In this document: positions 2,474 through 15,869 of the stretch, in pieces
Layout of the letters: each line of letters opens with the position of its first letter
Numbering within the stretch: position 1 is the stretch's first letter
Virus record (IMG/VR): IMGVR_UViG_3300033145_000929
Coordinates: 1 to 20,001 of that record
From: a virus
Length of the DNA: 20,001 nt
Reading direction: 5' to 3' (one strand)
Translations under genes and position numbers: made by a program
Notes under the pieces: generated by a model
Told to the model about the DNA's origin: nothing
Database searches by the model: none
The model's input: the letters and a program-made list of their open reading frames with translations, nothing else

Positions 2474-2484
2474 TTACAAGCTCC

Positions 2485-3000: not shown

Positions 3001-3015
3001 GATGTAACTCCTTTC

Positions 3016-3345
3016 TTAAATGTAGGCATTCTCGATTGCCTCGCTCTCCTTTAGTGGCTCCAGGTTAAGATCGTCTATCACAATTTGCATATTAAGTTTT
3101 AGTGCCATCACCACGAGTTGGGCAAGGGTCGGCAGTGCGTCCTTGTCTACCGGCCAGCCTGGCGGCAACTCAAAGCCGAGGCCAAGCAACCTGTAATCAG
3201 GACTATGGCCCCGCCTGTCCATCTGCGAAGCGATCTGATTGTAGAGTCTTAACCGGCATTCCGGTGCCAGGTCAAGACTTACGATCTCGAGCTCGTGTGG
3301 CAACGGCTTTAGCTCGCTTTGGTTTTTTCCTGAAGATTCTGTCAT
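3016..3345 (-). CDS. Hypothetical protein, 109 aa
   Basis: The 109-residue acidic protein contains SLDLAPECRLRLYNQIASQMDRRG and later GLGFELPPGWPVDKDALPTLAQLVVMAL; no family is recognised. It has no membrane helix and no metal-binding motif. The start at 3345 lies inside a shorter overlapping frame (3272-3400). This is the last gene of the small-gene block before the fibre-like genes, and is 15 bp upstream of the next start. It may belong to either group. Confidence 0.5.
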   Translation of the reverse strand: MTESSGKNQSELKPLPHELEIVSLDLAPECRLRLYNQIASQMDRRGHSPDYRLLGLGFELPPGWPVDKDALPTLAQLVVMALKLNMQIVIDDLNLEPLKESEAIENAYI

Positions 3346-3400
3346 AATTCTCGCCGTACTTTTTCCAGTCGACTTTGCGATATGTATCGCCTTTGCCCAT
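3272..3400 (-). CDS. Very small basic protein, 42 aa, overlapping the next gene
   Basis: A short frame reads from ATG 3400 to TGA 3272-3274 and overlaps the first 74 bases of the 109-aa gene in another frame. It starts MGKGDTYRKVDWKKYGENY and continues DRIF, followed by a lysine- and arginine-rich tail. A KVDxxKYxENYDRIF-like start of this type is, to my recollection, seen in small phage-encoded proteins of unknown role. An AAAAAGG site lies about 7 nt before the ATG. The upstream 59-aa frame ends 4 bases before this start. Both the compact spacing and the clean start favour a real gene, but its size leaves doubt. Confidence 0.45.
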   Translation of the reverse strand: MGKGDTYRKVDWKKYGENYDRIFRKKPKRAKAVATRARDRKS

Positions 3401-3404
3401 TCAG

Positions 3405-3584
3405 TTACCTTTTTCGCTTGCTCCGCCTTTTGCCCGTTTTCAAACGCGATACTGCGGCTGCAAGAGTCGCGTTATCATCCAGCATCTTAGACATCTGTTT
3501 ATTGCTAAGCTGTCTGGCCTTGGCTCGGATTCTGTTTAAGCCTTTGGTTGTCACTATATGTACCGGTAAAAAAAGTATCTTCAT
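3405..3584 (-). CDS. Small basic protein, 59 aa
   Basis: The frame runs from ATG 3584 to TAA 3405-3407 and begins MKILFLPVHIVTT, followed by a helical basic region (NRIRAKARQLSNKQMSKML) and a strongly basic C-terminus (GKRRSKRKR). It starts 9 bp after the stop of the 128-aa gene and ends 4 bp before the 42-aa gene, filling what would otherwise be a 250-bp gap in a tightly packed operon. The basic tail suggests nucleic acid contact, but no family is recognised. Confidence 0.42.
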   Translation of the reverse strand: MKILFLPVHIVTTKGLNRIRAKARQLSNKQMSKMLDDNATLAAAVSRLKTGKRRSKRKR

Positions 3585-3593
3585 TTTCCCAAC

Positions 3594-3980
3594 CTATGCC
3601 ATTGCCACGCTTGCGACCCCGCAGGAAACTCGCTCAGTAAACAGCATTCCCTGTCCGCGTGAATTAACTAACATCCTCTTTTGCCTGTGCGTTTTACCTA
3701 AAATCTGCTTTGCGTCAATCTGCCGACCTTCCAGGTAACCTTTGTACAACTCCGCATCGGTTGTCAGAAAATATCCGCCCTGGTTAGTCGCGACTATCAT
3801 CGAGCCGTTGACATCCCGCAGGTGTTTTATGATCGCCCGCACATGGCGACGCTGCGTTTCCCTGCAGCCGGCCAGGCCCAGCTCAGCCGCCAGGTCCGCC
3901 GCGACGATCGGCGAGTCCGCCGATTCGAGAATCCGCAAACACTCCGCCGCTTCGCAAGTTGTTATGTTCGGCTTAGTCAC
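3594..3980 (-). CDS. Putative winged-helix DNA-binding protein, 128 aa
   Basis: Residues 8-75 read like a winged helix: AAECLRILESADSP (helix 1), VAADLAAELGLAG (helix 2), RETQRRHVRAIIKHLRDV (recognition helix region), then NQGGYFLTTD, a typical wing strand. The C-terminal third (EGRQIDAKQILGKTHRQKRML) is basic and probably helical. The start is a GTG immediately after the upstream TGA, with an AGGTGG-like ribosome site. Proteins of this type are common as small regulators or replication helpers in phage early regions. The specific function is unknown. Confidence 0.58.
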   Translation of the reverse strand: MTKPNITTCEAAECLRILESADSPIVAADLAAELGLAGCRETQRRHVRAIIKHLRDVNGSMIVATNQGGYFLTTDAELYKGYLEGRQIDAKQILGKTHRQKRMLVNSRGQGMLFTERVSCGVASVAMA

Positions 3981-4202
3981 TCAATACCACCTGCCGCTTA
4001 AAATCGGATAATCATAATGTCGCCCTCTCGAACGAGAAACTACCCCTGCCCAGTAGCGTAATCTTTTCAATGTGCGTACTTGTGGCAATAGTCCATCGAG
4101 CTTTTCAACCGGCCAATAAAGAAGCTGGTAAAACCACTCACGCACCCCCCTTATCTTGTACAAGCACCATCCGCAAACAGCTCCACGCGGTAACCCGTTC
4201 AT
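3981..4202 (-). CDS. Hypothetical protein, 73 aa
   Basis: This 73-residue basic protein is rich in aromatic residues (GWCLYKIRGVREWFYQLLYWPVEK) and ends in RSRGRHYDYPILSGRWY. No domain is recognised. The start is supported by a very good GGAGGTGAATAA spacer just before the ATG, and it directly abuts the stop of the 121-aa gene. Its own stop abuts the GTG of the winged-helix gene. The continuous packing supports coding status. The ribosome site is part of the end of a short repeat tract that lies in the upstream gene. Confidence 0.5.
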   Translation of the reverse strand: MNGLPRGAVCGWCLYKIRGVREWFYQLLYWPVEKLDGLLPQVRTLKRLRYWAGVVSRSRGRHYDYPILSGRWY

Positions 4203-4568
4203 TTATTCACCTCCTAAATTCGTATCTCGTGATTCGTATTTCGTATCTCGGCTCGGAGCAGGCTCACCCGGAGGTCTAATTTCCAACAAGTATAATTTTT
4301 GCAATGCCCTGCCAATAGGAGTGCTGTAACCGAAGTCACCCGGAGCCCCAAAAGCCCCATGGATCTGCATCCTGAGTTCAACCTTTAATTGATCCGAGTA
4401 AGACTCCCCTTTGCGACTGTCGAGTAAAAAGGTGTTTATCCCGACCGCTCTTCTTGCAACCTTCGCCCAAAAATACGTCTCGCCGCATTCTTTTGTCTCT
4501 TCGCAAATAGCTGCATCAAGTTCTATAATAACCTTTGTAAATTTATCTACTGTTGTCTTTCCCATCAT
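4203..4568 (-). CDS. Hypothetical early-region protein, 121 aa
   Basis: The protein starts MMGKTTVDKFTKVIIELDAA and is predicted to be mainly helical through residue about 95, with YFWAKVARRAVGINTF and LKVELRMQIHGAFGAPGDFG as distinctive segments. No family is recognised. The last 20 residues are encoded by a degenerate tandem repeat (4219-4250) and read SRDTKYESRDTNLGGE, so the C-terminus looks like an added tail. It lies 30 bp after Gam in the leftward operon. The second of the two adjacent Met codons could be the start. Confidence 0.5.
   Translation of the reverse strand: MMGKTTVDKFTKVIIELDAAICEETKECGETYFWAKVARRAVGINTFLLDSRKGESYSDQLKVELRMQIHGAFGAPGDFGYSTPIGRALQKLYLLEIRPPGEPAPSRDTKYESRDTNLGGE
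4219..4250. repeat. Degenerate short tandem repeat (TACGA-type)
   Basis: On the minus strand the tract reads CGAGATACGA, AATACGAATC, ACGAGATACGAA: near-copies of ATACGA(R) with the 11-mer TTCGTATCTCG present twice on the plus strand (4220-4230 and 4240-4250). It forms the 3' end of the 121-aa gene and leads straight into the ribosome site of the next. A very similar tract is found at 18658-18690 on the other side of the window. Confidence 0.7.
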
Positions 4569-4598
4569 TCACCGCCTTTTCCGTATTCCTCTAACCTG

Positions 4599-5126
4599 TT
4601 ACTCCACGTAATCCACGGCTTCCGGTAAATCGGGGTCGACGAAAAACACCTCCTTGTGTTTTCGCGTCGCCCCTACCTTGGCCAGTTGCCCATCCGTGAG
4701 CCTGGCCAGAGCTTCTTTGTCCACCGTCTCTTTTGTATGGATAAATCCAGCCGCCCTGGCTTTGCTGAATACCTTTTTTATGAGATCGAGCGTGGTTTTC
4801 TTTACGCTGATAGCCGCCTTGCTTTTACGCCAGCCCAGGCAGCCAAAATTGAGTTTCCTGCTTTGGCTGTTTTTGAAGTCCCCCTTGTTGGCCGTGGCAA
4901 AGGCCTCGAGGCTTCGAGCGTAAAGTTTTATCGCTTCCTGGCATGGCTTGACAGTGCCGGCAAGCTCGGCCCTGGTCTCGTTGATATCATCGTTGGCTTT
5001 TTCTTCAGCAGCCTTTATCAGTAGTTGAAGATCGCCGATTTCCCGAATGTAATCATCGGCCTTTTCCCAACTGCCTACTGTCAAGACGCCTTTAGGCAAT
5101 TTGACTCGTCTTGTCCTCTTTGCCAT
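4599..5126 (-). CDS. gam: Gam-like host-nuclease inhibitor (Mu Gam family)
   Basis: Mu Gam binds double-stranded DNA ends as a Ku-like dimer and shields them from host exonucleases. This 175-residue protein has the expected length and layout: a basic N-terminus (KRTRRVKLPKGV), a long charged helical section (residues 22-60, IREIGDLQLLIKAAEEKANDD), a beta-rich core with KLNFGCLGWRKSKAAI, a helical KKTTLDLIKKVFSKARAAGF, and a closing KEVFFVDPDLPEAVD strand. The start is preceded by GGAGG about 8 nt upstream. It overlaps the end of the gp16-like gene by 35 bases. The neighbourhood of gp16-like and MuA/MuB genes strengthens the call. Confidence 0.82.
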   Translation of the reverse strand: MAKRTRRVKLPKGVLTVGSWEKADDYIREIGDLQLLIKAAEEKANDDINETRAELAGTVKPCQEAIKLYARSLEAFATANKGDFKNSQSRKLNFGCLGWRKSKAAISVKKTTLDLIKKVFSKARAAGFIHTKETVDKEALARLTDGQLAKVGATRKHKEVFFVDPDLPEAVDYVE

Positions 5127-5631
5127 CCGTAGCTACCTCCATGTCCTCTTTGATTTCCTGCAGGTTCGAATACTCTTTGCCTGTTTCGCGGCCGAGTATT
5201 GCCTTTAACGCCTCGATGGTTTTGTGTGCGAATTGGGGTGTAAGCGAGGCGACGTCTTTTATGAACCAACCATCCTTTTCGGTCATTCTTTTTATAAAGC
5301 CCTCGAGGTGTTCAACGCTCCAGCCCAGGTCCTCGGCTAAATGCCGTATCGCTGACTGCTGGGCAAAGCTGGCCAGCTCCCCTTGTTTAGCGACCCGCTG
5401 ACGATAATAGTCTTTGGGTTTGCCCGGCATTCGCCAGCCGTACGATTCGCATATAGCAAGCAGGTCTTCCATTTGCCAATTATTTAGCTGCCTGCAAGTT
5501 GTTACCTTACGGTCATCTGGCTGTTTGTACTGTCCGAGCAGCAGCCGGTACCTGCCGTCGAAGTTAGCAGTTCGCAAACCGGCCTTCCTAACGGCTGTTT
5601 GAATGAGCTTTATTTGGTTATTATTAAGCAT
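5092..5631 (-). CDS. Mu gp16-like protein (DUF1018 type)
   Basis: This 179-residue protein follows the gp16/DUF1018 pattern: IKLIQTAVRKAGL near the start, then YRLLLGQY, a TCRQLNNWQMEDLLAICES segment, and SYGWRMPGKPKDYY. In Mu-like phages this family sits between the transposition genes and late functions; its biochemical role is poorly defined. The second half (residues 85-150) has a helical QSAIRHLAEDLGWSVEHLEGF section and EALKAILGR. The start ATG directly follows the stop of the upstream 74-aa gene, and the 3' end overlaps gam. Confidence 0.78.
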   Translation of the reverse strand: MLNNNQIKLIQTAVRKAGLRTANFDGRYRLLLGQYKQPDDRKVTTCRQLNNWQMEDLLAICESYGWRMPGKPKDYYRQRVAKQGELASFAQQSAIRHLAEDLGWSVEHLEGFIKRMTEKDGWFIKDVASLTPQFAHKTIEALKAILGRETGKEYSNLQEIKEDMEVATDGKEDKTSQIA

Positions 5632-5856
5632 TTAATAAGCCTTTTTATGAGCTTTTTTGTGGTCCTTTTTACGAGCTTTTATCCTTGCCCACATCTCTTT
5701 GCATAACTGTTCTGTCGTGGTACAGCGGAGTATAAAACACAGATGCCACCTTTCGGCCATACCGCAGCAGGCCAGGTGTATTTTAAGTCCGCTGAGCATT
5801 TCGCACACCGGCACATCCAGATGCCAGTCAACTCTTTCTATTCCGGTTCCTATCAT
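5632..5856 (-). CDS. Hypothetical protein with basic tail, 74 aa
   Basis: The 74-residue product begins MIGTGIERVDWHLDVPVCEM and has three clustered cysteines (HLACCGM and ILRC), ending in a lysine- and histidine-rich tail (KARKKDHKKAHKKAY). The cysteines do not form a clear paired zinc motif. The start overlaps the stop of the XRE gene by 4 bases (ATGA), and the stop abuts the gp16-like start. Coding is likely from packing; the function is unknown. Confidence 0.5.
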   Translation of the reverse strand: MIGTGIERVDWHLDVPVCEMLSGLKIHLACCGMAERWHLCFILRCTTTEQLCKEMWARIKARKKDHKKAHKKAY

Positions 5857-6158
5857 TTCAGCTTTTCTTCTCTGTCAATAACGCTGGATACGTATTTATC
5901 AATATCAGGCACCAACTGCTGAACCAATTTTTTGTAAGCTGCCTGCTTCGACCGCCCTACCCCTGTTAGAAGCCAGTGCAGGTCAACTTCAAATTGCTCG
6001 GCTAAAGCAACGAACACTTTGACGGACGGCAAAGCTTTGTCTCTCTCGTACAAGCTGACCATCCTGCTGGACTTTATGCCTATCACTTTCGCTAATGACA
6101 CCTGTTTTAATCCGTGTCCTGTGCGAACTTTTTTTAATCTTTGCCCTATCGTTGTCAT
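5853..6158 (-). CDS. XRE/Cro-type helix-turn-helix regulator, 101 aa
   Basis: Residues 4-66 form a lambda-type HTH_3 domain: TIGQRLKKVRTGHGLKQVSLAKVIG, then SSRMVSLYERDKALPSVKVFVALAEQFEVDLHWLLTG. The LHWLLTG ending is characteristic of the family. The remainder is a short helical tail suited to dimerisation. It follows MuB by 1 bp, an unusual spot compared with Mu, where the ner regulator precedes A. It could tune early transcription from within the operon. Its operator is not identified. Confidence 0.82.
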   Translation of the reverse strand: MTTIGQRLKKVRTGHGLKQVSLAKVIGIKSSRMVSLYERDKALPSVKVFVALAEQFEVDLHWLLTGVGRSKQAAYKKLVQQLVPDIDKYVSSVIDREEKLK

Positions 6159-6159
6159 G

Positions 6160-7299
6160 CTATCCTGCCTGCTTCGCGGGTTGTTCTTTTTCTGTTTCCT
6201 CTTTACCGCCCTGCCTTACCGATATCGGGAGGTACGCCTTGACCGGCAAGCCAAGACATTCGATCGCACCAATGATTTGATCCACGCCGATCGGCTTTGA
6301 CTTATCGACATTCTTCGCAACGTGCAGCGTTGTGATAATACGATTGCAGGTCCGCAGCCGACCGGACTGCGGAGTCGAAGCGATGTTTTTCAACGCGGCG
6401 ACTGCGTTGGTTGCAAGACGAACCCCGCCATACTCAAACAGTTTTCGAATATCCATTGCTGTGTACAGCCCGCCGTCTCCGCCCTTGTGGGCCGCGAGCT
6501 CGTCCAGATTGAGAATGCAAAGCAACCGCGACCTGAACTGGTCGAGCGATTCAAAGCCTCGCCGAGTAGTCGGAAGCATAACGGTTTTGAGCAGATCCGA
6601 ATTGGCCGACAGGATAAGCGGACAACAACAGCGATCCACAATAACCGTCCGCAACTGGCTTAACTGCCTGACAGTTAGGGCAGAGGCCTCGTCAATCATT
6701 ACCACAACTTCCCTGTTCTGCAGATTAGTTATAATCCGCCGGGTAACATTATCCATTGACCCGGAAGTGTCAATCCCTATTTGCGCAGCAATCTCCGAGA
6801 ATACGCGTGTTGCGCTCATGGCGTTGTCGAGTACAATGTAAACAGTATTCTTATGGACCGCTGCGTATTCCCGCAGGCACACACTTTTACCGTGCCCGCT
6901 GTCACCTACGATAATAGATATCGCCCCTTCGGTTTCGTTGCTAAACGCCCTGGTCTGTTTGATTACAGTGTCGATACGCTTGGCAACATTCGTTTCCACG
7001 AACTCCCGTTTGCGAGCGTGCCTTGACCTGCGATCGACCGTGTTAATAAGGTCGGTAATTTTAATTATCAGCGTTCTGACATCACCTTTGTACTTATCGG
7101 CCAGGAACTGGCTTATAACAGAGGATGTAACGCCCACTTTTCTTGCGATTGTAGCCTGTATATAATCGTGCCGCTCCATAAAGAGTCGGAGCTTCTCGAC
7201 TGCCTGTTGGATATCAGCCTTTGTCATTTTTTCCGGAATCCTTTCACTAATCCACTGAGCATCCTGCTCAAGTCCCGTTTGGATGCTTCTGTCAGTCAT
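6160..7299 (-). CDS. MuB-like transposition-target ATPase
   Basis: MuB is an AAA+ ATPase that coats target DNA and activates the transposase. This 379-residue protein carries a lambda-like HTH at about 43-75 (IQATIARKVGVTSSVISQFL), a Walker A at 132-139 (GDSGHGKS), a Walker B at 198-205 (VVVMIDEA) and a sensor-like LILSANSD at 228-235, followed by a basic helical C-terminus. The length is somewhat greater than Mu B (312). It overlaps the 3' end of the transposase gene by 8 bases, the same A-then-B order as in Mu. The tail contains a KEETEKEQPAKQAG low-complexity end. Confidence 0.88.
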   Translation of the reverse strand: MTDRSIQTGLEQDAQWISERIPEKMTKADIQQAVEKLRLFMERHDYIQATIARKVGVTSSVISQFLADKYKGDVRTLIIKITDLINTVDRRSRHARKREFVETNVAKRIDTVIKQTRAFSNETEGAISIIVGDSGHGKSVCLREYAAVHKNTVYIVLDNAMSATRVFSEIAAQIGIDTSGSMDNVTRRIITNLQNREVVVMIDEASALTVRQLSQLRTVIVDRCCCPLILSANSDLLKTVMLPTTRRGFESLDQFRSRLLCILNLDELAAHKGGDGGLYTAMDIRKLFEYGGVRLATNAVAALKNIASTPQSGRLRTCNRIITTLHVAKNVDKSKPIGVDQIIGAIECLGLPVKAYLPISVRQGGKEETEKEQPAKQAG

Positions 7300-9211
7300 C
7301 GAATAATTTTAATTTCACTCCTTTGTTTTTCGGTATCATTGAATCGAAATCAACGTCCAGAACAGTACTAACCGATTCGCCCCCGGCGGCTTTTCTGACC
7401 GCCTTGACAGTCTCCTGCCTCGAATGCTCGGCTACCTGGCCATCCAGCGGGGTCCTTACGGGCCTGAGCGTCTGCATGGGTTGCTCTTTTGTTTCAGGCT
7501 TTTTGCGGCCTTCCTGCATCGCAGCGATTGTAAGTGACGTCAGGTCCATATTTGCTGTAAGCCGCGAATCGCGGAACGCCTTTGCTATTCGCAGGGCCTT
7601 CGATTTTTGTCGCATCGCCTCCCGTAACGATTCTTCGTCAACGCTGTCACCGTACTGGATAAGCCGGTTCTGCTCGGCCATTGTGATGAGCTTTAGTGTC
7701 ACTGCATCGTACACGTAGACCTTACGCAGATCGTCCGGATCGTAAGCGACCCTCACCCTTCTGTCGAAGCGGCTCAACACCTCCAGATCGTATTGGCCGT
7801 AGAACATACCTTTGAAACGGACTCCGTTTTTGCCGATCTTCAGTTCCTTACTCCAGCCGCGAGCTACCAGGTCAAGGACGCCATCCTGCAGTACTCTCCT
7901 CGAGCATCGAGCAGCGAAAACTTCCGCCGGCGACTTGCCGTTCATTCCGGACCCGCTGTGTGCGGTATTGTTGTAGGCGTCTATGTACTTATCCACCAGC
8001 TCCGTAAAGCTGTCCAAATCATAGGCTTCGTTTAAGGCCTTTTCGCTCTTGAGCAGATCGTTTAGGTAGTCGGGCTTGCGGTTGGTATCTTTGCCGCAAT
8101 ATGTTGCAAAAGACTTCGTGAACTGCTTATCCATCGTGTCAAACCAGCGTTCGATGTTTTTGGCTTGCGGATGGTAGGCTATGGCGAAGGACACTCCGAT
8201 GTCCATCATTGCGTATATCCCTGCAACCATCTGCTCGTCGAGGTATCCTGCCTTTAACGCCCTTCTTTTGGCCTTTGTTGTCCCTGTCCACATCTCGGAA
8301 TCGTAATCGCGGCCGTTGTCAATCTTGACCGAATCCGGCGGACCGTATTTGGCGATACCTCTTTTAGATGCCCGCAAAATCGTGGTCTGGTTAGGTGATA
8401 CTGAAATGTCACGGCCTACGATATTGCGGCTTCTCATATCCAGCCAGGCTGTAATCCACGGACGAAACCACCTGCCTCGATGCCGAATCCAGCAATTAAA
8501 CTGCGAGTGATCGCCGACCCATATTTGCCCGGGTGCAACGCTGTCGGGGTCTACCTGGACATAAGATGCACACTTCGCCTCATAAGCAGCCATCCCTTCG
8601 CGGAGTAATATCTGCGAGAACAGGGGTATCTGTGTCTGAACGTATTTGTACATAAAACGCAGCTGTGGAATCTGCCAGTTGCGTTTTTCGCTGGTATTGA
8701 TATAGCTTATGTTCTGCCAGCAGGTTTTAACGCTTCGGCGTTGCTGGGTAAGGTACATGCTCTTGAACATCTCGAAGGCTTCCGGCGATATAACCTGGCT
8801 GATGAACTTGCCGCCGCCCCGCGTATCGACCAGGCCTGCAAGCCCCTGCTCTCTATATTTTCCCACCCATCGCTGCAAGGTCCTCAAGCCTATTCCGTGA
8901 CGAGCCGCAAAAAGCTCAGCGGCCTTACACCTCTTTTCGATAGTTGCAGCAAACCGTTCGAAGTCCACCACTATACCTAATCGGCTGATTGCCTCTTTAC
9001 GCTTCTTTTCAGGTACGCCTCGTAATTCTCTTGATAGCTTTCCCCCCGGCTCGCTGCGAGCTAATCGCAGGTCGGCAGTTACCGGTATCTGCCAGTAGCT
9101 GCCGTTTTTTATCGCTCCCGGCAGTTCGCCGTCGATACACATCCGTCTGATGTGCCGCTTTGTACAGCCCATCAGCTCTGCCGCTTTTTCGATAGTTAGA
9201 TAGTCGCTCAT
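7292..9211 (-). CDS. MuA-like DDE transposase
   Basis: The transposase cuts and joins phage ends during integration and replicative transposition. In this 639-residue protein, residues 3-45 are a helix-turn-helix of the excisionase/MuA N-terminal kind (TIEKAAELMGCTKRHIRR), and 85-130 is a second HTH (GIGLRTLQRWVGKYREQG). The RNase H-like core carries the DDE triad at about D234 (WVGDHSQF), D298 (VKIDNGRDY) and E354 (KNIERWF). After that come a Mu-type beta-barrel region with YGQYDLEVLSRFDRRV and a basic C-terminal arm. Length is close to Mu A (663). Its ATG overlaps the upstream stop (ATGA). All catalytic residues appear intact. Confidence 0.93.
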   Translation of the reverse strand: MSDYLTIEKAAELMGCTKRHIRRMCIDGELPGAIKNGSYWQIPVTADLRLARSEPGGKLSRELRGVPEKKRKEAISRLGIVVDFERFAATIEKRCKAAELFAARHGIGLRTLQRWVGKYREQGLAGLVDTRGGGKFISQVISPEAFEMFKSMYLTQQRRSVKTCWQNISYINTSEKRNWQIPQLRFMYKYVQTQIPLFSQILLREGMAAYEAKCASYVQVDPDSVAPGQIWVGDHSQFNCWIRHRGRWFRPWITAWLDMRSRNIVGRDISVSPNQTTILRASKRGIAKYGPPDSVKIDNGRDYDSEMWTGTTKAKRRALKAGYLDEQMVAGIYAMMDIGVSFAIAYHPQAKNIERWFDTMDKQFTKSFATYCGKDTNRKPDYLNDLLKSEKALNEAYDLDSFTELVDKYIDAYNNTAHSGSGMNGKSPAEVFAARCSRRVLQDGVLDLVARGWSKELKIGKNGVRFKGMFYGQYDLEVLSRFDRRVRVAYDPDDLRKVYVYDAVTLKLITMAEQNRLIQYGDSVDEESLREAMRQKSKALRIAKAFRDSRLTANMDLTSLTIAAMQEGRKKPETKEQPMQTLRPVRTPLDGQVAEHSRQETVKAVRKAAGGESVSTVLDVDFDSMIPKNKGVKLKLFDD

Positions 9212-9654
9212 TCTTTGCTCATGAGTAGTTTATCGAGAATATTACAAGTATTGGCCAGTGCACTTTTCAGGCTATGCAGCAGGTTGATAGACTCTGCATC
9301 AAGGTTTATCTGTTTGTCGTAATCGCCGCCCGGCCCGAGGACTACAGGTGCCGGCTCGGGCAGTTCATTAACGATTATCCAGTCGCCGAAGGGTTTGCAA
9401 TTTTCATTGGAGACGAGCCTGTAAGTTTGATATTTGTGGATATGCCATTTGCCGTATTGCAGAAACTGTATCACCTGATGGCCCAACCCGCACTTGAAGC
9501 ACCATCCGAAATACGTCCTGATGGTCCGTCCGTATCTGTCAGTATGGCCCTGTTCCGGCATGGAAGGGTACGGTATAGAATTATAGCACTTCGGACAAAC
9601 CACGTCCGCAATAGTCTTCTGAAAGCCTTGCTGTATTTGATTCTCCGTCTCCAT
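9208..9654 (-). CDS. Zinc-motif protein at the head of the transposition operon, 148 aa
   Basis: From METENQIQQGF the protein has two CxxC pairs about 30 residues apart (CPKC and CFKC in GWCFKCGLG), suggesting a zinc ribbon. They are followed by a beta-rich KWHIHKYQTYRLV segment and a helical C-terminus (NLLHSLKSALANTCNILDKLL). No family name is certain. I chose ATG 9654 because it has an AAAGGA site and because the longer upstream extension would run through the tRNA-like element. The stop overlaps the MuA start. It could be a DNA-binding helper for transposition, but this is a guess from location. Confidence 0.6.
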   Translation of the reverse strand: METENQIQQGFQKTIADVVCPKCYNSIPYPSMPEQGHTDRYGRTIRTYFGWCFKCGLGHQVIQFLQYGKWHIHKYQTYRLVSNENCKPFGDWIIVNELPEPAPVVLGPGGDYDKQINLDAESINLLHSLKSALANTCNILDKLLMSKE

Positions 9655-9746
9655 ATTTAGCGTCCTTTTTTCTTTTCTCAGGAAGCAGCAGTCAGTTTGG
9701 AATAACTCCCTGTTCTGACTGCCGCCGACCCAAAGCTTTAGGCTAA

Positions 9747-9877
9747 TAGGGCAGGCGGGACTTGAACCCGCAAGGAGAGCAGCACTTATTGGCTTGCCTT
9801 TGGCTCTCATTGACAAGCCCTAAAGTGATGTTCACACTTTAGTGTTGCTGTGCATCTGCCAATTCTGCCACTGCCCT
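9747..9877 (-). tRNA. tRNA-like element with an abnormally long anticodon loop (tRNA-Leu-like arms)
   Basis: On the minus strand, 131 nt fold as a tRNA except in the middle. The 7-bp acceptor stem is AGGGCAG with CTGCCCT and discriminator A; no CCA is encoded. The D arm is GCA/TGC with an AATTGGCAGA loop, very like leucine tRNAs. The T arm is GCGGG/CCCGC with the canonical TTCAAGT loop. A possible anticodon stem is CAGCA/TGCTG, but the loop between is 60 nt and holds two further hairpins: CTAAAGTG/CACTTTAG with a 7-nt loop, and GGCTTG/CAAGCC. No anticodon with U33 can be assigned. It may be a degenerate tRNA, a tRNA with an insertion, or a tRNA-mimicking RNA. Confidence 0.55.
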
Positions 9878-9951
9878 TCTTAATTTTTCAATACAACTGT
9901 TCAGTACCCCCAGCTTTTCAGCTGCACCATGTCCTGATGCCCACCACGCCA

Positions 9952-10806
9952 TCAGCGTTTATTTGCTTTTTCGTTTTGTCTCCTGATATCATTCCAGTAA
10001 GTATCGGTACTTTTCTTTCGCCATCCGCGAGGCCCGCCGTTGAAAATCCGGCAGGCGATTTCTTCTTTATGTCTCTCCACCCACCTCGTGATATACAGCT
10101 TTGCGATATGCTTTGCCGTTTCGATGCTCTGTGTATCTGCGGTTGTATAATCCGTTCCGTAGTGACTATTGATATCATCGAGCACACCCTGCTGTATCTG
10201 CAGCGGGCCGTGCGACAGGCCGCCGTCTCCGTCCGGACAGGCTAATCTGCCGCTCGATTCGGCCTGCCAGATTTTCTCGACTGTCGCATCGAGCCAGTCG
10301 TAATATCGCAGCGGGCGGGCGTCCTGCCCACCCGCCGGGGTGATAGGATCAGGCGGCTGCCTGTTGGCTTCTGTGCAGCCGCTCCGGACGTGGTCGCAGC
10401 GGCTGCTGAAAGGAGAATCACCATGTGTAAGGTTATTGTCAGCCCCCACACACGGTGGGGGATTACTGTCAAAGGACCGCAGAACATCCGCCGTAGCATC
10501 CGTGCCTGCGGCCTCGCCGAGGAGGGTGATGAGCAACAGCCCCGTCAACAGGGCTGTTGCACAGAGATAGCCGCTCGTGGAGGAGGTTCTGGTATTCGAC
10601 CTACCGAACGGCTGAATTTTTTTCTTGTGGCATTCGCGGAGATGTTTTTTTACGATGCCGATATCATGACCGGACAACCAGTATATTAGCCCTAACCAAA
10701 ACAGTCGGCCGCCTATTTTTTTCTTGATTTTTCCTTGCATCGCTCTACAGTAATTCTTGGTATTCGACTTTTTATTGTCTCGGGCAAAATGCCCGTTTTC
10801 TTTCAA
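9952..10806 (-). CDS. Membrane-anchored lysozyme / lytic transglycosylase-like endolysin
   Basis: The C-terminal 115 residues look like a lysozyme-fold muramidase or SLT domain: DWLDATVEKIWQAESSG with candidate catalytic E183, then GGLSHGPLQIQ (197-205), AKHIAKLYITRW, and ACRIFNGGPRGW (251-262). It would cleave peptidoglycan at lysis. A hydrophobic segment at 80-97 (YLCATALLTGLLLITLLG) and a weaker one at 35-44 suggest a membrane anchor, with a Pro/Asp-rich linker at 110-165. The annotated ATG lies inside an inverted repeat, so an internal start such as Met23 (MQGKIKKKIG) is possible. It is on the early strand, away from the late genes. Confidence 0.72.
   Translation of the reverse strand: MKENGHFARDNKKSNTKNYCRAMQGKIKKKIGGRLFWLGLIYWLSGHDIGIVKKHLRECHKKKIQPFGRSNTRTSSTSGYLCATALLTGLLLITLLGEAAGTDATADVLRSFDSNPPPCVGADNNLTHGDSPFSSRCDHVRSGCTEANRQPPDPITPAGGQDARPLRYYDWLDATVEKIWQAESSGRLACPDGDGGLSHGPLQIQQGVLDDINSHYGTDYTTADTQSIETAKHIAKLYITRWVERHKEEIACRIFNGGPRGWRKKSTDTYWNDIRRQNEKANKR
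10779..10803 (+). terminator. Possible plus-strand terminator hairpin
   Basis: The sequence CGGGC AAAAT GCCCG is followed by TTTTCTTTC on the plus strand, the shape of an intrinsic terminator. No confident plus-strand gene ends here, so it may block antisense transcription. On the minus strand it overlaps the annotated start of the lysozyme gene. Confidence 0.35.
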
Positions 10807-10841
10807 TCCTGCGGGTCAGCCGCCCGCCGGAGCTATCAAAT

Positions 10842-11048
10842 TCAACCGGCCACGCTGGCCGGTTGTGAGTAATCGACTGTGATACCGTATTCGGCGAGAC
10901 GCTCATCGAGTTTTTCGTGAAGGAGTTTTCGGGCGGCTCCGGTAATATCGTCATAGAGGTAAGGAGCGATTGCATTGAGTTTTCGAATCAACAGTTCATC
11001 GACCTTGCGGTCGGAATTGAAATTTACGCATTTAACTAATTTGGCCAT
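10842..11048 (-). CDS. Small protein, possibly ribbon-helix-helix-like, 68 aa
   Basis: The 68-residue product begins with a strand-like AKLVKCVNFNS, followed by two predicted helices (KVDELLIRKLNAIAPYLY and GAARKLLHEKLDERLAEYG). A beta-alpha-alpha layout of this size would suit a ribbon-helix-helix DNA-binding dimer, but the sequence match is weak. It lies upstream of the lysozyme and downstream of the hairpin-rich non-coding region. No clear ribosome site is seen; a GAAAG lies about 9 nt before the ATG, behind a run of nine A residues. Confidence 0.45.
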   Translation of the reverse strand: MAKLVKCVNFNSDRKVDELLIRKLNAIAPYLYDDITGAARKLLHEKLDERLAEYGITVDYSQPASVAG

Positions 11049-11351
11049 ATTCGAACTTTCGTTTTTTTTTCAGAAAAATCTTGATTTTATCGGCTCCGGT
11101 CATATACTTTTACTTGGTATTTGACTTAACTGGCGGCTGTCGCCGATTCTTTTAAGCGATTGCAACGCCAACAGCTGCCTAAAATCTATTTTTAACCCCG
11201 ATAATCGGGGATTGTTTTCCGGTGTCCAACAAGACTTACGTCTGCCGAACACCAGCCTTAACGGGCGAGCGTCTTGGCTTATATCAGGCTAAAAAGCCTG
11301 TTTATTTTCAAACCTGCGTGGTTTCCGGCCACGCAGGGAAAATAATAAATA
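11049..11351. other. Non-coding, hairpin-rich region beside the regulatory switch
   Basis: No convincing gene is present in these 300 bases. Several inverted repeats are visible: CCCCGAT/ATCGGGG (11196-11210), GGTGT/ACACC bracketing AGAC/GTCT (about 11221-11255), CAGGCT/AGCCTG (11285-11300) and the 9-bp CCTGCGTGG/CCACGCAGG (11313-11337). A T-run of nine bases lies at 11062-11070. The region could hold terminators, a small RNA, or transposase/repressor binding sites comparable in role to the Mu internal enhancer. None of these is proven. Confidence 0.6.
11285..11309 (+). terminator. Hairpin with T-rich tail, possible plus-strand terminator
   Basis: CAGGCT AAAA AGCCTG is a perfect 6-bp stem with a 4-nt loop followed by TTTATTTTC on the plus strand. 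It could end a plus-strand transcript made from the non-coding region. No such transcript is otherwise visible. Confidence 0.35.
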
Positions 11352-11558
11352 TCAGTCAGGGACGCCCCCTGACTGAAGAACCTCAGTGTTTTCCGTATAG
11401 TTAGTTTCGTTTTGTGATGGTCGAGAATCAATGAAAGAGCGGACTATGTCCCGAATGGTTTCGCTAAATGACATACAGCTTCGGACTTTACCGTACGCTT
11501 TTATTTGCTCGTAAAGCCCAGGACTAAAATCGATTGTTTTTCTTATCTTTTGGTTCAT
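11352..11558 (-). CDS. Ribbon-helix-helix (Arc/CopG-like) regulator, 68 aa
   Basis: Starting at MNQKIRKTIDF the protein gives a beta strand (RKTIDFS) followed by helix PGLYEQIKAYGKV and helix SFSETIRDIVRSFIDSR, the ribbon-helix-helix plan used by Arc, Mnt and CopG repressors. Such dimers insert the strand into the DNA major groove. I placed the start at ATG 11558 because the domain begins right after it; a TTG at 11594 would add 12 residues and neither start has a good ribosome site. It is divergent from the XRE gene at 11683, as expected for paired lysis-lysogeny regulators. Confidence 0.68.
   Translation of the reverse strand: MNQKIRKTIDFSPGLYEQIKAYGKVRSCMSFSETIRDIVRSFIDSRPSQNETNYTENTEVLQSGGVPD
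11353..11375 (-). terminator. Terminator at the end of the ribbon-helix-helix gene
   Basis: CAGTCAGG/CCTGACTG is a perfect 8-bp stem with a 7-nt loop. On the minus strand it is followed by ATATTTATTATTTT, a T-rich tail. The hairpin overlaps the gene's stop codon and would end the short regulator transcript. Confidence 0.5.
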
Positions 11559-11628
11559 AGTCTGGCTTATTAAAAATTCGTTCTTACTTTTCAATCATAC
11601 TTATTGTCGGTAAATATGCAATATAACC

Positions 11629-11657
11629 TTTACTCTTTTTGTAATATTATGCATACT
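11629..11657 (+). promoter_or_regulatory. Candidate rightward promoter for the XRE repressor
   Basis: TTTACT at 11629-11634 and CATACT at 11652-11657 are spaced by 17 bases and would give a very short leader before the ATG at 11683. The match is only moderate. The site overlaps the stronger leftward promoter and includes related TATGCAATAT and TTATGCATAC sequences that could be operators. Confidence 0.33.
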
Positions 11658-11673
11658 TTTTAGGCACAGTCAA
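11644..11673 (-). promoter_or_regulatory. Sigma-70-type promoter for the leftward regulator
   Basis: On the minus strand TTGACT (11673-11668) is followed after 18 bases by TAATAT (11649-11644); CATAAT at 16-base spacing is an alternative. Transcription would start near 11637, about 80 bases before the chosen ATG of the RHH gene. It overlaps the candidate rightward promoter, so the two would compete. Confidence 0.55.
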
Positions 11674-11682
11674 GCACAAAAT

Positions 11683-12108
11683 ATGAAAAAAAGAAGAAAA
11701 AGCAAAAAAAAAGTTGTCAGCGGCAAAATAGCCCTAATTCCTGCTTATGACAGGTTTTGCAATCCTAATTATGATGATGAAATTTACAAATGGCAAGGCT
11801 GGGGTTTTGTTATTCGTCATCTTCGTGAATATACGAGTATGGATCAAGCCGTTTTTGGCCGTTTATTGCAAGGCTATACACGAGGTCAAATAAGTAGATA
11901 CGAAATAGAAGATACAGAACCGCCTATTGATTTCTGGGTTAAAATGATGCGTACGTTCGGGGTCAATATCAATTGGGTATACACCGGACAAGGTGAACCC
12001 TATATCCGCAAATTTCAAGATAGCGAGGAGAGACTGCGTTTTTTCGAGTGGGCACGGCTTATTAATGAAAAAGAAAACTTCTTGAAAGAATTAAAAGGCT
12101 GGCAATAG
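11683..12108 (+). CDS. XRE/CI-like repressor, 141 aa
   Basis: Residues about 41-106 hold an HTH_3 domain: GFVIRHLREYTSMDQAVFGRLL, then RGQISRYEIEDTEPPIDFWVKM and a closing FGVNINWVYTGQGEPY. The final NWVYTG is the usual end of the fold. The N-terminus is strongly basic (KKRRKSKKKVV), and the C-terminus is a helical tail with no peptidase motif, so it is not a LexA-type repressor. It faces away from the RHH gene, a phage-repressor arrangement. No Shine-Dalgarno sequence is evident upstream, which suits a short leader. This gene and the next are AT-rich relative to the flanks. Confidence 0.75.
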   Translation: MKKRRKSKKKVVSGKIALIPAYDRFCNPNYDDEIYKWQGWGFVIRHLREYTSMDQAVFGRLLQGYTRGQISRYEIEDTEPPIDFWVKMMRTFGVNINWVYTGQGEPYIRKFQDSEERLRFFEWARLINEKENFLKELKGWQ

Positions 12109-12110
12109 CG

Positions 12111-12626
12111 ATGGCACACCCCATACAGCGCAATTGCCCAAATTGTAGCAATATAATTCCGATACCCGCCCAGTACGTAGGCAGGGTTAAATGCCGCCAT
12201 TGTGGTCATATCTTCAAAACCAAAGGTCAATTACATGAGCAACGCAAATATATTCTCGAAAAGTTGGCCGATTTAGAAACCTCCGGCTTTCAATATGTCC
12301 GCTGGTTGGCTGCAAATGATGAGTATGTCTGCCCGCTCTGTGCCGAAAAAAACAAACGTCTATTCAAACCTGATGAAGTTAGACAGCTAATTCAAGGTAA
12401 GTTCTGTCAAGCCAAGGATTTCTGGCAGGGTTGCCGCTGTATAATCGGATCCGCCAAAAATCCCACAGAAGTTCTTAAAAAACCAAAAAGCAAGTCTCCC
12501 GTAAAAGTAGTTACAAGTGTCAAAACTGAAATCAGAAACAGAGAACCAACTACGCTTGTCCAGTTTGATCTTAAAGTGAATAAACGTCGACTCGCCAAGC
12601 TTAAGAAAAAATCTCAAAAAGAATAA
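12111..12626 (+). CDS. Zinc-ribbon protein with MuF-tail-like cysteine region, 171 aa
   Basis: Residues 9-31 form a CxxC-x15-CxxC ribbon (CPNC and CRHC). A second part, residues 58-111, reads GFQYVRWLAANDEYVCPLC, followed later by a GKFCQ segment and a GCRC ending. The order of a W..aNDE.vC..C segment and a terminal CRC resembles the C-terminal part of Mu F-like head-morphogenesis domains. The last 55 residues are very basic. It starts 2 bp after the XRE gene and probably shares its transcript. Function is unknown; DNA or RNA binding is a reasonable guess. Confidence 0.6.
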   Translation: MAHPIQRNCPNCSNIIPIPAQYVGRVKCRHCGHIFKTKGQLHEQRKYILEKLADLETSGFQYVRWLAANDEYVCPLCAEKNKRLFKPDEVRQLIQGKFCQAKDFWQGCRCIIGSAKNPTEVLKKPKSKSPVKVVTSVKTEIRNREPTTLVQFDLKVNKRRLAKLKKKSQKE

Positions 12627-12636
12627 ATTTTAGCCC

Positions 12637-12664
12637 TTGACACGGCTTTGCCGATAGGTATATT
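12637..12664 (+). promoter_or_regulatory. Sigma-70-type promoter for the rightward late block
   Basis: TTGACA (12637-12642) and TATATT (12659-12664) are separated by 16 bases. A start near 12671 would give a leader of about 160 bases before the CsrA-like gene. It is the best promoter match on the plus strand and stands at the head of the long rightward gene series. Confidence 0.55.
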
Positions 12665-12829
12665 TGAGAAAAACCAAATAGGCGAATGTTTCCGGCATTT
12701 GCCAAATGAGCTAATTTCACGCTCTCTGACTGTGGAACCTACAGGCAGAGGGCGTCTTTTTATGCGCCCGCCTGAAACTATAATCCGGAGTCCGGGATGG
12801 ACTTCTACAAAATGGAAGGGATGCCAAAA
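12665..12829 (+). promoter_or_regulatory. Structured leader with clustered GGA motifs
   Basis: The leader holds an interrupted hairpin, CAGGC-AGA-GGGCG pairing with CGCCC-GCCTG (about 12741-12773). It is followed by five GGA triplets at 12787, 12795, 12799, 12814 and 12819, the last two in the ribosome-binding region of the CsrA-like gene. GGA is the core of CsrA sites, so autogenous control is a plausible reading. Confidence 0.4.
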
Positions 12830-13018
12830 ATGAAAGCTAAACGACTTGTGCTTAGGTTACACAAAGGTGAACAAATTTCGTTAGGTATGAAAGGTCGGCC
12901 GGATGCTATAGGTACAATCAGGTTAGATGATTCATTCCATCTGCAAAATGCCAGACTTGTATTCGAGTATCCGCCTTCTGTCAGTATTTTAAGAAGCAAT
13001 GCTAAAATAAAAAAATAA
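12830..13018 (+). CDS. CsrA-like RNA-binding regulator, 62 aa
   Basis: The 62-residue product aligns by eye with CsrA/RsmA: RLVLRLHKGEQISLG matches the first strand and GE turn, and ARLVFEYPPSVSILR matches the VRIGVNAPKEVSVHR strand, with R42 at the position of the RNA-contacting Arg44. A 7-residue insertion sits between, and the usual T-R after the first strand is changed. CsrA dimers bind GGA motifs in mRNA leaders and block translation. I chose ATG 12830 because GGAAGGG lies 9 nt before it; in-frame ATGs at 12797 and 12821 are also possible. It is the first gene after the rightward promoter. Confidence 0.5.
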   Translation: MKAKRLVLRLHKGEQISLGMKGRPDAIGTIRLDDSFHLQNARLVFEYPPSVSILRSNAKIKK

Positions 13019-13075
13019 CAACAGGTACGGATGTCTGTTGAATGATTTCTTTAGATAGGCCATGGAGGTGCCAAA

Positions 13076-13594
13076 ATGAAAGTTAATACCCCTCAATCGT
13101 CAGTCGTCAATTACAAATCGTCAATTCTTAAAGGCTGTTTAACCGTACTTCTAATCGCCATTACACTGGCTTTTATGCTGGTCTTTGCCGGGTGTAATCC
13201 AGAAGACACCATCACGGCCATCCAGCAGGGTGCTGGCGAAGCTCACTATCAGGCGACTGATCCATGCAGCCCCGTTCAGGTTACCGCTCAGCAGTTAAAG
13301 CAGATGACCGATTCAGCCACAATACTGGTAACAACCGCCGCCGCCACAGTTGGCTTTCCTTATGCCAAAGCCATTCTTGGTGCATTGGCTGTTATTCAGG
13401 GTGTGCTCGCTTTGGTCCTCGGATGGCAAAAGAAACAAACCCAGACAGCTTTGGAGCAGGTGGTACTCGGCAATGAGGTACTCAAGAAAAAACTTCCTGA
13501 TTCTACCAATCAAATATTCAAAGATTCCCAAATTGCCCAGTCGCCGGCGACCCAAAAGCAGGTAGCTAAAATTCGCAAACAAGTTGCTGTTTAA
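13076..13594 (+). CDS. Lipoprotein with a second membrane segment, lysis-related candidate, 172 aa
   Basis: Residues 21-40 form a hydrophobic signal ending in a lipobox-like LVFAGC, so Cys40 may be lipid-modified. A second hydrophobic span at 93-117 (GFPYAKAILGALAVIQGVLA) follows, then a charged helical tail. One exported anchor plus one transmembrane segment could suit a holin or spanin-like lysis protein, but no family is recognised. The N-terminal extension (residues 7-18) is coded by a short degenerate repeat at 13095-13126. It is preceded by a GGAGG site 7 nt upstream and followed by another small membrane protein gene. Confidence 0.6.
   Translation: MKVNTPQSSVVNYKSSILKGCLTVLLIAITLAFMLVFAGCNPEDTITAIQQGAGEAHYQATDPCSPVQVTAQQLKQMTDSATILVTTAAATVGFPYAKAILGALAVIQGVLALVLGWQKKQTQTALEQVVLGNEVLKKKLPDSTNQIFKDSQIAQSPATQKQVAKIRKQVAV
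13095..13126. repeat. Degenerate short tandem repeat (ATCGTCA-type)
   Basis: The tract is built from near-copies of ATCGTCA: AATCGTCAGTCGTCAATT, then ACAAATCGTCAATT. It is in frame inside the N-terminal coding region of the lipoprotein gene. The style matches the TACGA-type tracts at 4219-4250 and 18658-18690, though the unit is different. Confidence 0.55.
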
Positions 13595-13615
13595 CAATTT
13601 CAGGAGAGTAGTTGC

Positions 13616-13963
13616 ATGAATTCTGCGATATTGCAAATTTTCGGCATTTTGCTAAGTGCTACAGCCACGCTTATCGGTGCCCTTGTACTGTGGAACCTCA
13701 AGGCTATCACAAAAAGACTCGAAGCAGTTGAGGCTGAGCAGAAAAAGCTCGCAACACGCAAAGAGACCTGTCAGCAGGAGTTTGTAGGCATCGGCCAGTT
13801 CCTGCGAGAATCAGGATACACACGCAAGCGGCTCGATGACACGGTCGAGGCCGTAAAGGGTATGTCGGCCAAGCTCGACGTGGTTTCACAATTGCCGCAG
13901 ATTGCCGGGCAAATTGCCAGCCAGACGGTCAAGGAAATGATGTCATACGTGAATAAAGGATAA
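13616..13963 (+). CDS. Small membrane protein with coiled-coil region, 115 aa
   Basis: An N-terminal transmembrane helix (residues 4-26, AILQIFGILLSATATLIGALV) is followed by a heptad-like helix (KAITKRLEAVEAEQKKLATRK), and a further helical part ends QIAGQIASQTVKEMMSY. The layout resembles DUF2730-like or Rz-like small proteins found before the gp26/gp27-type genes of Mu-like phages; the exact family is unsure. A CAGGAGAG site precedes the ATG by about 8 nt. It lies between the lipoprotein and a wHTH-like protein, which suggests a lysis or accessory role. Confidence 0.58.
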   Translation: MNSAILQIFGILLSATATLIGALVLWNLKAITKRLEAVEAEQKKLATRKETCQQEFVGIGQFLRESGYTRKRLDDTVEAVKGMSAKLDVVSQLPQIAGQIASQTVKEMMSYVNKG

Positions 13964-13967
13964 AAAA

Positions 13968-14276
13968 ATGGGGACTGAACCGGAAATACTAAAGATAAAA
14001 CTTGCACGCAAACGCATACTTAGCTTTCTCAATATGATGTATCCCACACCTCTGCAGGTCGGGACCATCTACGATTCGATTGGTTATATCGACTCGACTT
14101 ACGATATGCAGTTATTCCAAAAAGACCTGGCATACCTGAAAGCCAAGGACTGGATAGAGTTCGTTGATGAAAAAATCGGTGGAGCTGCTCGGTTCAAGAA
14201 TAAGGTCATCTGCCTGACGGCTACCGGCAAAGAGATAGCAGAGCAAACGCAGACCGACCCTGCGTTGGAGATATGA
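13968..14276 (+). CDS. Mu gp26-like / winged-helix-like protein, 102 aa
   Basis: The protein has a winged-helix pattern: KLARKRILSFLNMMYPTPL, then TIYDSIGYIDSTYDMQLFQ, LAYLKAKDWIEFVDE (recognition helix and strand), and KVICLTATGKEIAEQ (wing and final helix). Proteins of this size with the LT..G.ei..g ending are found immediately upstream of the gp27-like gene in many Mu-like phages. It may be a regulator or a packaging helper. The start has an AAAGGA site; the gap to the previous gene is 4 bp. Confidence 0.58.
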   Translation: MGTEPEILKIKLARKRILSFLNMMYPTPLQVGTIYDSIGYIDSTYDMQLFQKDLAYLKAKDWIEFVDEKIGGAARFKNKVICLTATGKEIAEQTQTDPALEI

Positions 14277-14280
14277 GCCG

Positions 14281-14469
14281 ATGGATTATAAATTTTACCC
14301 AAAACCTTTTGACGTCAATTCGCCGCCGCCGGGACCACCGAATCGCGACGGCCGTATATGGCCGTTTGCTGGTTGGGTAGAGACAAAGGATTCAAAAAAA
14401 CGTACCGCTGAATATCGACAAAGGCTTAACGAGTATGGACAAAATTTAGAGAAAGGACACTTAAAATGA
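14281..14469 (+). CDS. Small hypothetical protein, 62 aa
   Basis: The 62-residue product has a proline-rich front (FDVNSPPPGPPNRDGRIW) and a charged helical back (KKRTAEYRQRLNEYGQNLEK). No family is recognised. It starts 4 bp after the wHTH-like gene and overlaps the exported protein gene by 4 bases (ATGA), so translation is probably coupled. A GGAG lies about 12 nt upstream, a weak ribosome site. Confidence 0.5.
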   Translation: MDYKFYPKPFDVNSPPPGPPNRDGRIWPFAGWVETKDSKKRTAEYRQRLNEYGQNLEKGHLK

Positions 14470-15260
14470 AAAAGCTGATTCTACTAACGCTTCTGCTAAC
14501 ATCAATCTGTTATGCAACTGCCACTTTCACGGCATCCGAGAATTCATATTACGGCCGAACCTCGTCCGCAAAGAAGCTGACGGCAACTATCACACCTACT
14601 ACGGCGTCGGACGCCAACTCCAGCGATCGTGCAACTGCCGGCATTTACGGCATAGCCGACAGGATCACAATTGCAACTACGGGAACCGATACCGTCTTTG
14701 GAGTTATCGTCAAGGACGAAAACGCAATCACTATATTCTCGAAGTCCGATTGCAATACCGTCCAGACTCCGCTGTCTTATGCACTTTATGAAGATGACAC
14801 CGAAGGCAATCCGCACAAAGGCATTCCGGTCATGGGTCTTTTGTATTTTGACGCCAACGGCATTGCCTATACGAGTGAGCAGCAGACGGTACAGATAACC
14901 AGCGATGCAAACGACCCCTGCAGCGGCACGTTTGAATTGACTTACGATGATGTCAATACTACGCCGCTTGCTTATGACATTAACTCTGCCGGGCTCGAAG
15001 CTGCCCTCGATGCACTTTCATCTATAAACGATGTTACCGTGGAAGGCAACGACCTGCCCGGCGACACCAATGTTATGACGGTCACTTTTGGCGGAACGCA
15101 TTATGGGGCCGATCTCGAATCGATGACGACTGATGTCAGCAATCTCGCAGCCGATACCAATGATGCCACGATAACCGGTACCGTTACCGAGTCGGTAGCA
15201 GGCGATTACAACCTGGATACCATTACCGTAACTATTTATTACAGGGACGAAAGATACTGA
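14466..15260 (+). CDS. Exported beta-rich protein in the late block, 264 aa
   Basis: Residues 1-19 are a clear Sec signal peptide (KKLILLTLLLTSICYATA), so this product leaves the cytoplasm, unusual for a gene among packaging genes. Residues about 35-125 are beta-rich. Residues 150-230 contain a repeat-like unit, FELTYDDVNTTPLAYDINSAG followed by LEAALDALSSI and VMTVTFGG. That form resembles a beta domain common in large surface proteins of planctomycete-type bacteria and some phages. The start has AAAGGA 9 nt upstream. It could be a lysogenic-conversion surface protein or a virion part with an unexpected leader; neither is shown. Confidence 0.62.
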   Translation: MKKLILLTLLLTSICYATATFTASENSYYGRTSSAKKLTATITPTTASDANSSDRATAGIYGIADRITIATTGTDTVFGVIVKDENAITIFSKSDCNTVQTPLSYALYEDDTEGNPHKGIPVMGLLYFDANGIAYTSEQQTVQITSDANDPCSGTFELTYDDVNTTPLAYDINSAGLEAALDALSSINDVTVEGNDLPGDTNVMTVTFGGTHYGADLESMTTDVSNLAADTNDATITGTVTESVAGDYNLDTITVTIYYRDERY

Positions 15261-15266
15261 TCTGTC

Positions 15267-15869
15267 ATGAGCAAAAACAGAAGGACACACAGTTCTATCG
15301 ACAAGCTGCCGGCTGACTTGCGTGATACTTTGACTCGCATGATAGTCGACAACGAATGGCCGGACGACTTCGATTTTTCGTTCCATGAACCACGTCGTGT
15401 TGGTGAGGAGCGATACAATGGCAAACCTCGATACACCGACCTGCTTTTCTACTGTGCCCAAAAAAAATACAGGGTCTCCGAATCGGCGATAGGGCGATTC
15501 GGTATGAGAATGCGAATGCTGGCACGAATGAAAAATGCCGGTGTTGTTGTCCGCGACGTAATGCAGGACCTGACCGCCGAAAAAGCTTCCGAAACTCAGA
15601 AGGCCGTCGCTGAAATGATCACGGCGGTAACTATCGATTTTGTCAGCAGTAATGACAACTTCGACGCCAAAGAGATCAAAGATATCGCCCGTGCAATCAA
15701 GGACTGCACTCTGGTAAGTATCAATGCTGATAAGTATATCCGCGAGCAAGTGGGTAAAAAAGTACAGGCTGCTGCCGACTCGACAAAGAAGAAGCTTACC
15801 AAGGCCGGCGTTAATCGAAAACTTATACAGGAAATCATAGATGAGCATTTAGGAGTAGTGAAATCGTAA
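15267..15869 (+). CDS. DUF3486 (Mu gp27-like) protein, candidate small terminase
   Basis: The family sits directly before the Mu-type large terminase and is thought to act in DNA packaging. This 200-residue protein shows its pattern: SSIDKLPADLRDTLTRMI at the start, a middle segment with YRVSESAIGRFGMRMRML (an HTH-like unit), and long helices rich in Ala, Lys and Glu to the end. It lies right before the gp28-like terminase. The start codon is not preceded by a strong ribosome site. The 3' end overlaps the likely terminase start. Confidence 0.8.
   Translation: MSKNRRTHSSIDKLPADLRDTLTRMIVDNEWPDDFDFSFHEPRRVGEERYNGKPRYTDLLFYCAQKKYRVSESAIGRFGMRMRMLARMKNAGVVVRDVMQDLTAEKASETQKAVAEMITAVTIDFVSSNDNFDAKEIKDIARAIKDCTLVSINADKYIREQVGKKVQAAADSTKKKLTKAGVNRKLIQEIIDEHLGVVKS

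Follow-up and report, generated by a model that had tools for sequence, protein, structure and literature searches.

The bacterial Y RNA YrlA (PMC8394870, which cites Chen 2014 and Wang 2018) is a non-decoding RNA with a tRNA-like domain that is recognised by tRNA-modifying enzymes. The RNA element studied here, found in a 20,001-nt stretch of viral DNA (the window; IMG/VR record IMGVR_UViG_3300033145_000929, positions 1 to 20,001), resembles YrlA in being a non-decoding RNA with a tRNA-like domain and differs from it at its ends, which in YrlA form a basal stem that binds Ro60/Rsr and here form a plain acceptor stem. The YrlA model RF02553 gave no match to the window at E values up to 10, and no Ro60/TROVE gene (PF05731) was present in the record of the window or in that of its relative L003, both of which may be fragments. 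Likely Y RNAs have reportedly been seen near Ro60 in phages as well.

Phage T4 produces the stable RNAs C and D (species 1 and 2, NC_000866), which are 119-139 nt long and are encoded in its tRNA cluster. RNA C shares a 3' T arm with the window element but has neither a D arm nor a good acceptor stem, and it fails the body descriptor that the window element passes; the same descriptor recovers all 8 T4 tRNAs. tmRNA also has a tRNA-like body with a replaced anticodon arm. In contrast to tmRNA, the window element is far shorter, has a D stem and has a Leu-like rather than an Ala-like body, and neither Rfam nor ARAGORN found a tmRNA in it. tRNA genes with group I introns carry an insertion in the anticodon loop, as the element does, but the insert here is 61 nt long and without a catalytic core, no RF00028 match being found in the loop by the Rfam search. 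In the open-access literature we found no description of natural tRNA scaffolds or of phage tRNAs whose anticodon loop is enlarged, and the similarly altered tRNAs of many other phages appear to be undescribed.

Architecture of the element

The earlier note had placed the element at 9747-9877, on the strand that also encodes the transposition genes. This held, the strand being the minus strand, on which the following parts were recognised.

9747..9877, minus strand: tRNA-like RNA, whole element, 131 nt (sequence and cloverleaf parse)
9871..9877, minus strand: 5' strand of the acceptor stem, AGGGCAG, paired 7/7 with CUGCCCU at 9748-9754
9852..9868, minus strand: Leu-type D arm, GCA-GAAUUGGCAGA-UGC, with U8 and G9 before it and GG in its loop (cloverleaf parse)
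9846..9850, minus strand: 5' strand of the anticodon stem, CAGCA, paired 5/5 with UGCUG at 9780-9784
9785..9845, minus strand: 61 nt replacing the 7-nt anticodon loop (cloverleaf parse)
9820..9842, minus strand: loop hairpin 1, CUAAAGUG-UGAACAU-CACUUUAG, 8 bp with a 7-nt loop (parse)
9791..9819, minus strand: loop hairpin 2, GGCUUGUC...GGCAAGCC, 8 bp plus 2 bp (parse)
9772..9779, minus strand: variable region CUCUCCUU, 8 nt, without a class II variable arm (cloverleaf parse)
9755..9771, minus strand: T arm GCGGG-UUCAAGU-CCCGC, stem 5/5, canonical loop (parse; 13.3 bits to RF00005)

The element has the canonical 7-bp acceptor stem, U8, a D arm with GG, a T arm with GUUCRA and A73. Its 5' end is at 9877 and its discriminator A73 at 9747, A26 stands between the D arm and the anticodon stem, and no CCA is encoded. 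The cloverleaf parse thus bore out the earlier description of an intact acceptor stem, Leu-type D arm, T arm and discriminator A. The element lacks the canonical anticodon loop of 7 nt, and with it U33 and an anticodon. The anticodon arm had been thought to be replaced as a whole by a 60-nt region with two hairpins; the hairpins are there, but the anticodon stem is retained and the loop alone has been swapped, for 61 nt. Since two hairpins stand in place of the anticodon loop, the RNA is unable to read codons. By its sequence, the element is a genuine non-decoding tRNA-like RNA gene.

A strict descriptor of the body had a single match in the window and none in 300 dinucleotide shuffles, and a descriptor of the body plus anticodon stem matched once in the window, once in the relatives and not at all in shuffled sequence totalling 5,627 kb. 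Folding of the 131 nt, which had been suggested as a check, gave -48.5 kcal/mol for the cloverleaf versus -50.4 kcal/mol for the unconstrained minimum. A plus-strand reading, which gives a similar fold, was set aside because it is the minus strand that carries the T arm and every tRNA landmark. ARAGORN did not call the element in the window, and Rfam left it unmatched at the gathering threshold, RF00005 scoring 13.3 bits, on the T arm only, against a threshold of 29 bits. The element escapes these tools because the insert breaks the geometry that they expect.

Folded alone, the 61-nt loop reached -21.9 kcal/mol, versus -10.0 ± 2.6 kcal/mol for its shuffles (z = -4.65; 0/1000 as low). Its best antisense partner in the window scored 13.0, no better than those of shuffled loops (13-17).

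Gene neighbourhood, relatives and host

Three genes around the element are needed to describe its setting.

9952..10806, minus strand: transglycosylase-like gene, upstream of the element, 284 aa, recognised by its ESSG...GPLQI motif only
9208..9654, minus strand: small C4 (CxxC...CxxC) protein, 148 aa, first gene downstream of the element
7292..9211, minus strand: MuA-type DDE transposase (PF02914, 3.1e-12; PF09299, 3.4e-10; phrog_310)

The minus-strand operon runs from small ORFs (11594, 11048) through the transglycosylase-like gene, the tRNA-like RNA, the C4 gene and MuA to MuB, and a repressor-like HTH gene (11683) diverges from it. The element was said to lie directly upstream of the operon, 93 nt before its first gene. 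It does precede the C4-MuA genes, but the co-directional operon is longer than that and includes the transglycosylase-like gene upstream, which places the element in its interior; 92 nt separate the element from the ATG of the C4 gene (9654). A start of the C4 gene within the element, where its frame is open from 9816, was rejected because the ATG at 9654 has an AAGGA upstream of it and because the frame is not open through the L003 element. Pfam gave no match for the transglycosylase-like gene at 9952-10806; the C4 protein belongs to a family conserved among the MuA kin and matched nothing in Pfam or PHROGs.

The MuA of L003 is 61% identical to that of the window, and the two share their gene order (transglycosylase, 71-aa ORF, tRNA-like element, C4 gene, MuA in L003). 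The L003 element occupies the same gene interval with a different tRNA body and a 17-nt loop, and scores 43.7 bits with RF00005, above the gathering threshold. The 5' half of its body resembles a host tRNA-Arg, and the 3' half is 91% similar to a host gene that is a tRNA-Met according to ARAGORN. Compared in sequence, the two phages share the site of the element and not the element itself; since the L003 body is of another type, they may have acquired tRNA genes independently. Conservation in related phages, on which the earlier note would have had its proposal stand or fall, was half borne out: L003 was the one MuA relative of 15 with a clear element in the interval, and none was found in the other 14, two of which are truncated records. 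The element is therefore dispensable for this lineage. No closer relative emerged from a DNA search of 50,697 phage records, from searches with the C4 protein or from a gapped D plus T arm pattern run on viral contigs, and an L003-specific MuA search returned L003 alone.

ARAGORN makes a marginal tRNA-Leu(cag) call in a different MuA relative, within the early operon (L283:1497-1580); on rereading, this is a worn body with only 5 acceptor pairs and a loop of 14 nt. It was rejected as a third case, as it failed the body descriptor with those 5 pairs.

Relatives of MuA were present in two Planctomycetota MAGs and in five further genomes of the same class, which indicates a Planctomycetota host. 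The sequence data thus point to a transposing Mu-like phage of Planctomycetota. The D-arm sequence of the element is common to three tRNA-Leu genes of one Planctomycetota genome (host D arm, GGCGGAATTGGCAGACGC). All 15 pairs of its acceptor, D and T stems are intact and none is broken relative to host tRNA-Leu, while 8, 7 and 6 pairs, respectively, differ on both sides from those three genes; as the host genes are not orthologues, this comparison shows compatibility with pairing and not the path of change. A tRNA origin of the element is supported. Among 392 Planctomycetota genomes, there were 4 candidate matches to the pattern, at least 2 of which look like neighbouring tRNAs.

tRNA bodies without a regular anticodon arm in other viral contigs

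Viral contigs were scanned with two gapped patterns, Leu-type and class I. As the resulting sets are pattern-selected and cover the matches listed, we claim no frequency. In the Leu-type scan, 82/119 among the matches listed had at least 6/7 acceptor and at least 4/5 T pairs. A second Leu-type scan, over all loci and with a somewhat different D-arm pattern, gave at least 61 records in which a regular anticodon arm was missing. The window (L001) is one of them, which leaves at least 60 other distinct bodies, in unrelated viral contigs. Among the matches listed, these 60 comprise 38 distinct acceptor stems in which 264/266 cells are paired, versus 52% when one side is shuffled; the cut-off of at least 6/7 acceptor pairs inflates the former figure, whereas the two-sided variety seen at every position is not due to it. 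The class-I scan gave 98 passing records among the matches listed, or 97 once L009, the same contig as L003, is removed as a duplicate. A 5/5 anticodon stem with a loop of 14-44 nt was present in 29 of the 98 listed (28 distinct), versus 2.6% in shuffled cores. Excision could restore U33 in 9 of these 29 loops (again among the matches listed), so that some may be introns.

These viral RNAs have the same design as the window element, namely a body of canonical acceptor, D and T arms whose anticodon loop or arm has given way to 14-107 nt, although several of them, unlike the window element, lie within tRNA arrays. The window element shares with them the intact body and the lack of a regular anticodon arm. 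Its core, in contrast, has no sequence in common with theirs: its loop had 0 further matches in viral contigs and no homologue among the clustered cores, which gives no sign of shared descent. The cores of the other RNAs are themselves mostly unrelated and fold little better than their shuffles (median z -0.6 in the remaining population), so the strong loop fold of the window is not typical.

Two pairs of related cores speak for function at the sequence level. Those of L108 and L120 are about 97% identical, yet sit on the acceptor stems GTGTGAG/CTCACAC and AGTCAGG/CCTGACT, respectively. In L033 and L132, a core hairpin and a presumed 6-bp pseudoknot vary on both sides, as judged by eye from two sequences. 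The isolated Bacteroides phage BS-TP2 has an unannotated element of the L132 type.

Several further observations concern these contigs. The BS-TP2 element (L261:6001-6108; PQ571275 19550-19657) lies between DUF2303 and NinG/Rap genes. In L108, a group I intron (1522-1951, minus strand; 72 bits) holds the tRNA-like element, at 1606-1734, between its conserved parts; in L120, nearly the same core belongs to a free-standing element. Two of the Leu-type bodies that lack an anticodon arm, L110:5649-5763 and L060:971-1100, have a phage tmRNA gene nearby (L110 5872-6220 and L060 1258-1669, respectively). Among the 61 Leu-type records listed (L017-L136, and the window as one of them), the discriminator is mostly followed by a C-N-A trailer with N other than C (CAA 22, CTA 11, CGA 5, CCA 1). 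A loop motif near GCAYUUGCGUWUU recurs, by eye, in the enlarged anticodon loops of L055, L146, L171, L209 and L220. A viral family of 13 members (L138, L142, L144, L158, L164, L182, L201, L204, L206, L215, L228, L238 and L250) has a regular anticodon arm, with the loop CUUAUAC, and a long variable region that is unusual for a class-I D arm.

Proposed function and competing explanations

The element is most likely functional, to judge from its sequence. Its best explanation, which we hold to be just about probable, is a matured, non-decoding mimic RNA derived from tRNA-Leu and acting in trans, perhaps as a decoy or scaffold, and encoded by a Mu-like phage of Planctomycetota within its early operon. 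The 15/15 body pairs, the z of the loop, the synteny with L003, the failure of excision to give U33 in the window or L003, the viral RNAs of like design and the core pairs L108/L120 and L033/L132 all favour it; the lack of a loop homologue, the 14/15 MuA relatives without a clear element, the different type of the L003 body, the weak core folding of the other viral RNAs and the lack of an antisense partner in the window count against it. The element would be transcribed together with the early operon and matured by host enzymes as a tRNA is, with a 5' cut by RNase P, a 3' cut by RNase Z and addition of CCA. The resulting stable RNA, unable to decode because of the two-hairpin module where the anticodon loop was, would act in trans as a tRNA mimic. 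Its intact elbow and acceptor could be bound by host proteins that recognise tRNAs, such as a tRNA-targeting defence nuclease, a synthetase, a modification enzyme or EF-Tu, and the hairpin module might offer a new binding surface or simply do away with a cleavable anticodon. The RNA may also be charged: E. coli LeuRS depends little on the anticodon, and by analogy charging of the element is therefore possible. That it serves as a decoy, which the earlier note had proposed alongside a processed leader RNA, is a guess, and a rather doubtful one.

Alternatively, the fold might act in cis, as a target at which RNase P and RNase Z cut the early transcript between the transglycosylase-like gene and C4-MuA-MuB, the loop barring its use in translation. 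The co-directional position of the element inside the operon, in both the window and L003, agrees with such punctuation, as does the like element between co-directional replication genes of BS-TP2. Yet a structured 61-nt loop is not required for this purpose and most MuA kin have nothing at the site, which makes it unlikely, if still worth reckoning with.

We also considered that the element is a decaying, phage-borne tRNA-Leu gene with an insertion in its anticodon loop and no present function, which was one of the earlier proposals. Phages gain and lose tRNA genes, and the patchy presence among the MuA kin, the Leu-like D arm common to host genes and the worn L283 call in the same operon would fit this. 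A long-dead copy would, however, be expected to have broken pairs, and the element has none although 6-8 of 15 are changed on both sides, which argues that it is not simply decaying; the insert is itself structured beyond chance. We therefore regard decay as improbable.

A functional tRNA-Leu with a small intron would account for an insert at this point, the anticodon loop being where introns usually lie, next to an intact anticodon stem. At 61 nt, however, the insert is far too short for a group I intron, as had been recognised earlier, and has no Rfam intron match. No simple excision that leaves 7 nt yields U33, in the window or in L003, so that a cryptic intron is very unlikely, and realignment produced no regular anticodon; splicing of bulge-helix-bulge introns, moreover, is not known in bacteria. 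A DNA-level feature, with operator palindromes near an early promoter, or mere chance is hardly credible, since, for all that hairpin 1 is a perfect 8-bp palindrome and a weak promoter-like match overlaps the 5' end of the element, neither hairpin palindrome has a second copy in the window, promoter-like sites are near their shuffled expectation and the body was not reached in shuffles.

The matured mimic RNA proposed for the window could belong to a wider group. It is possible, and we put this forward tentatively, that the window element is one of a widespread and undescribed set of phage RNAs in which a tRNA body serves as a scaffold for processing and stability, or as a mimic, and carries exchangeable, fast-changing modules where the anticodon loop or arm would be, acting as decoys or effectors against defences of the host that depend on tRNAs. 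Annotation tools largely miss such genes: ARAGORN left most of the ones checked uncalled, and some register with Rfam only as weak tRNAs. The copy in BS-TP2 sits in an isolated phage, so the idea is open to experiment. Provided that they are stable, these RNAs would be a natural equivalent of the engineered tRNA scaffold, and phages would be using tRNA bodies beyond decoding.
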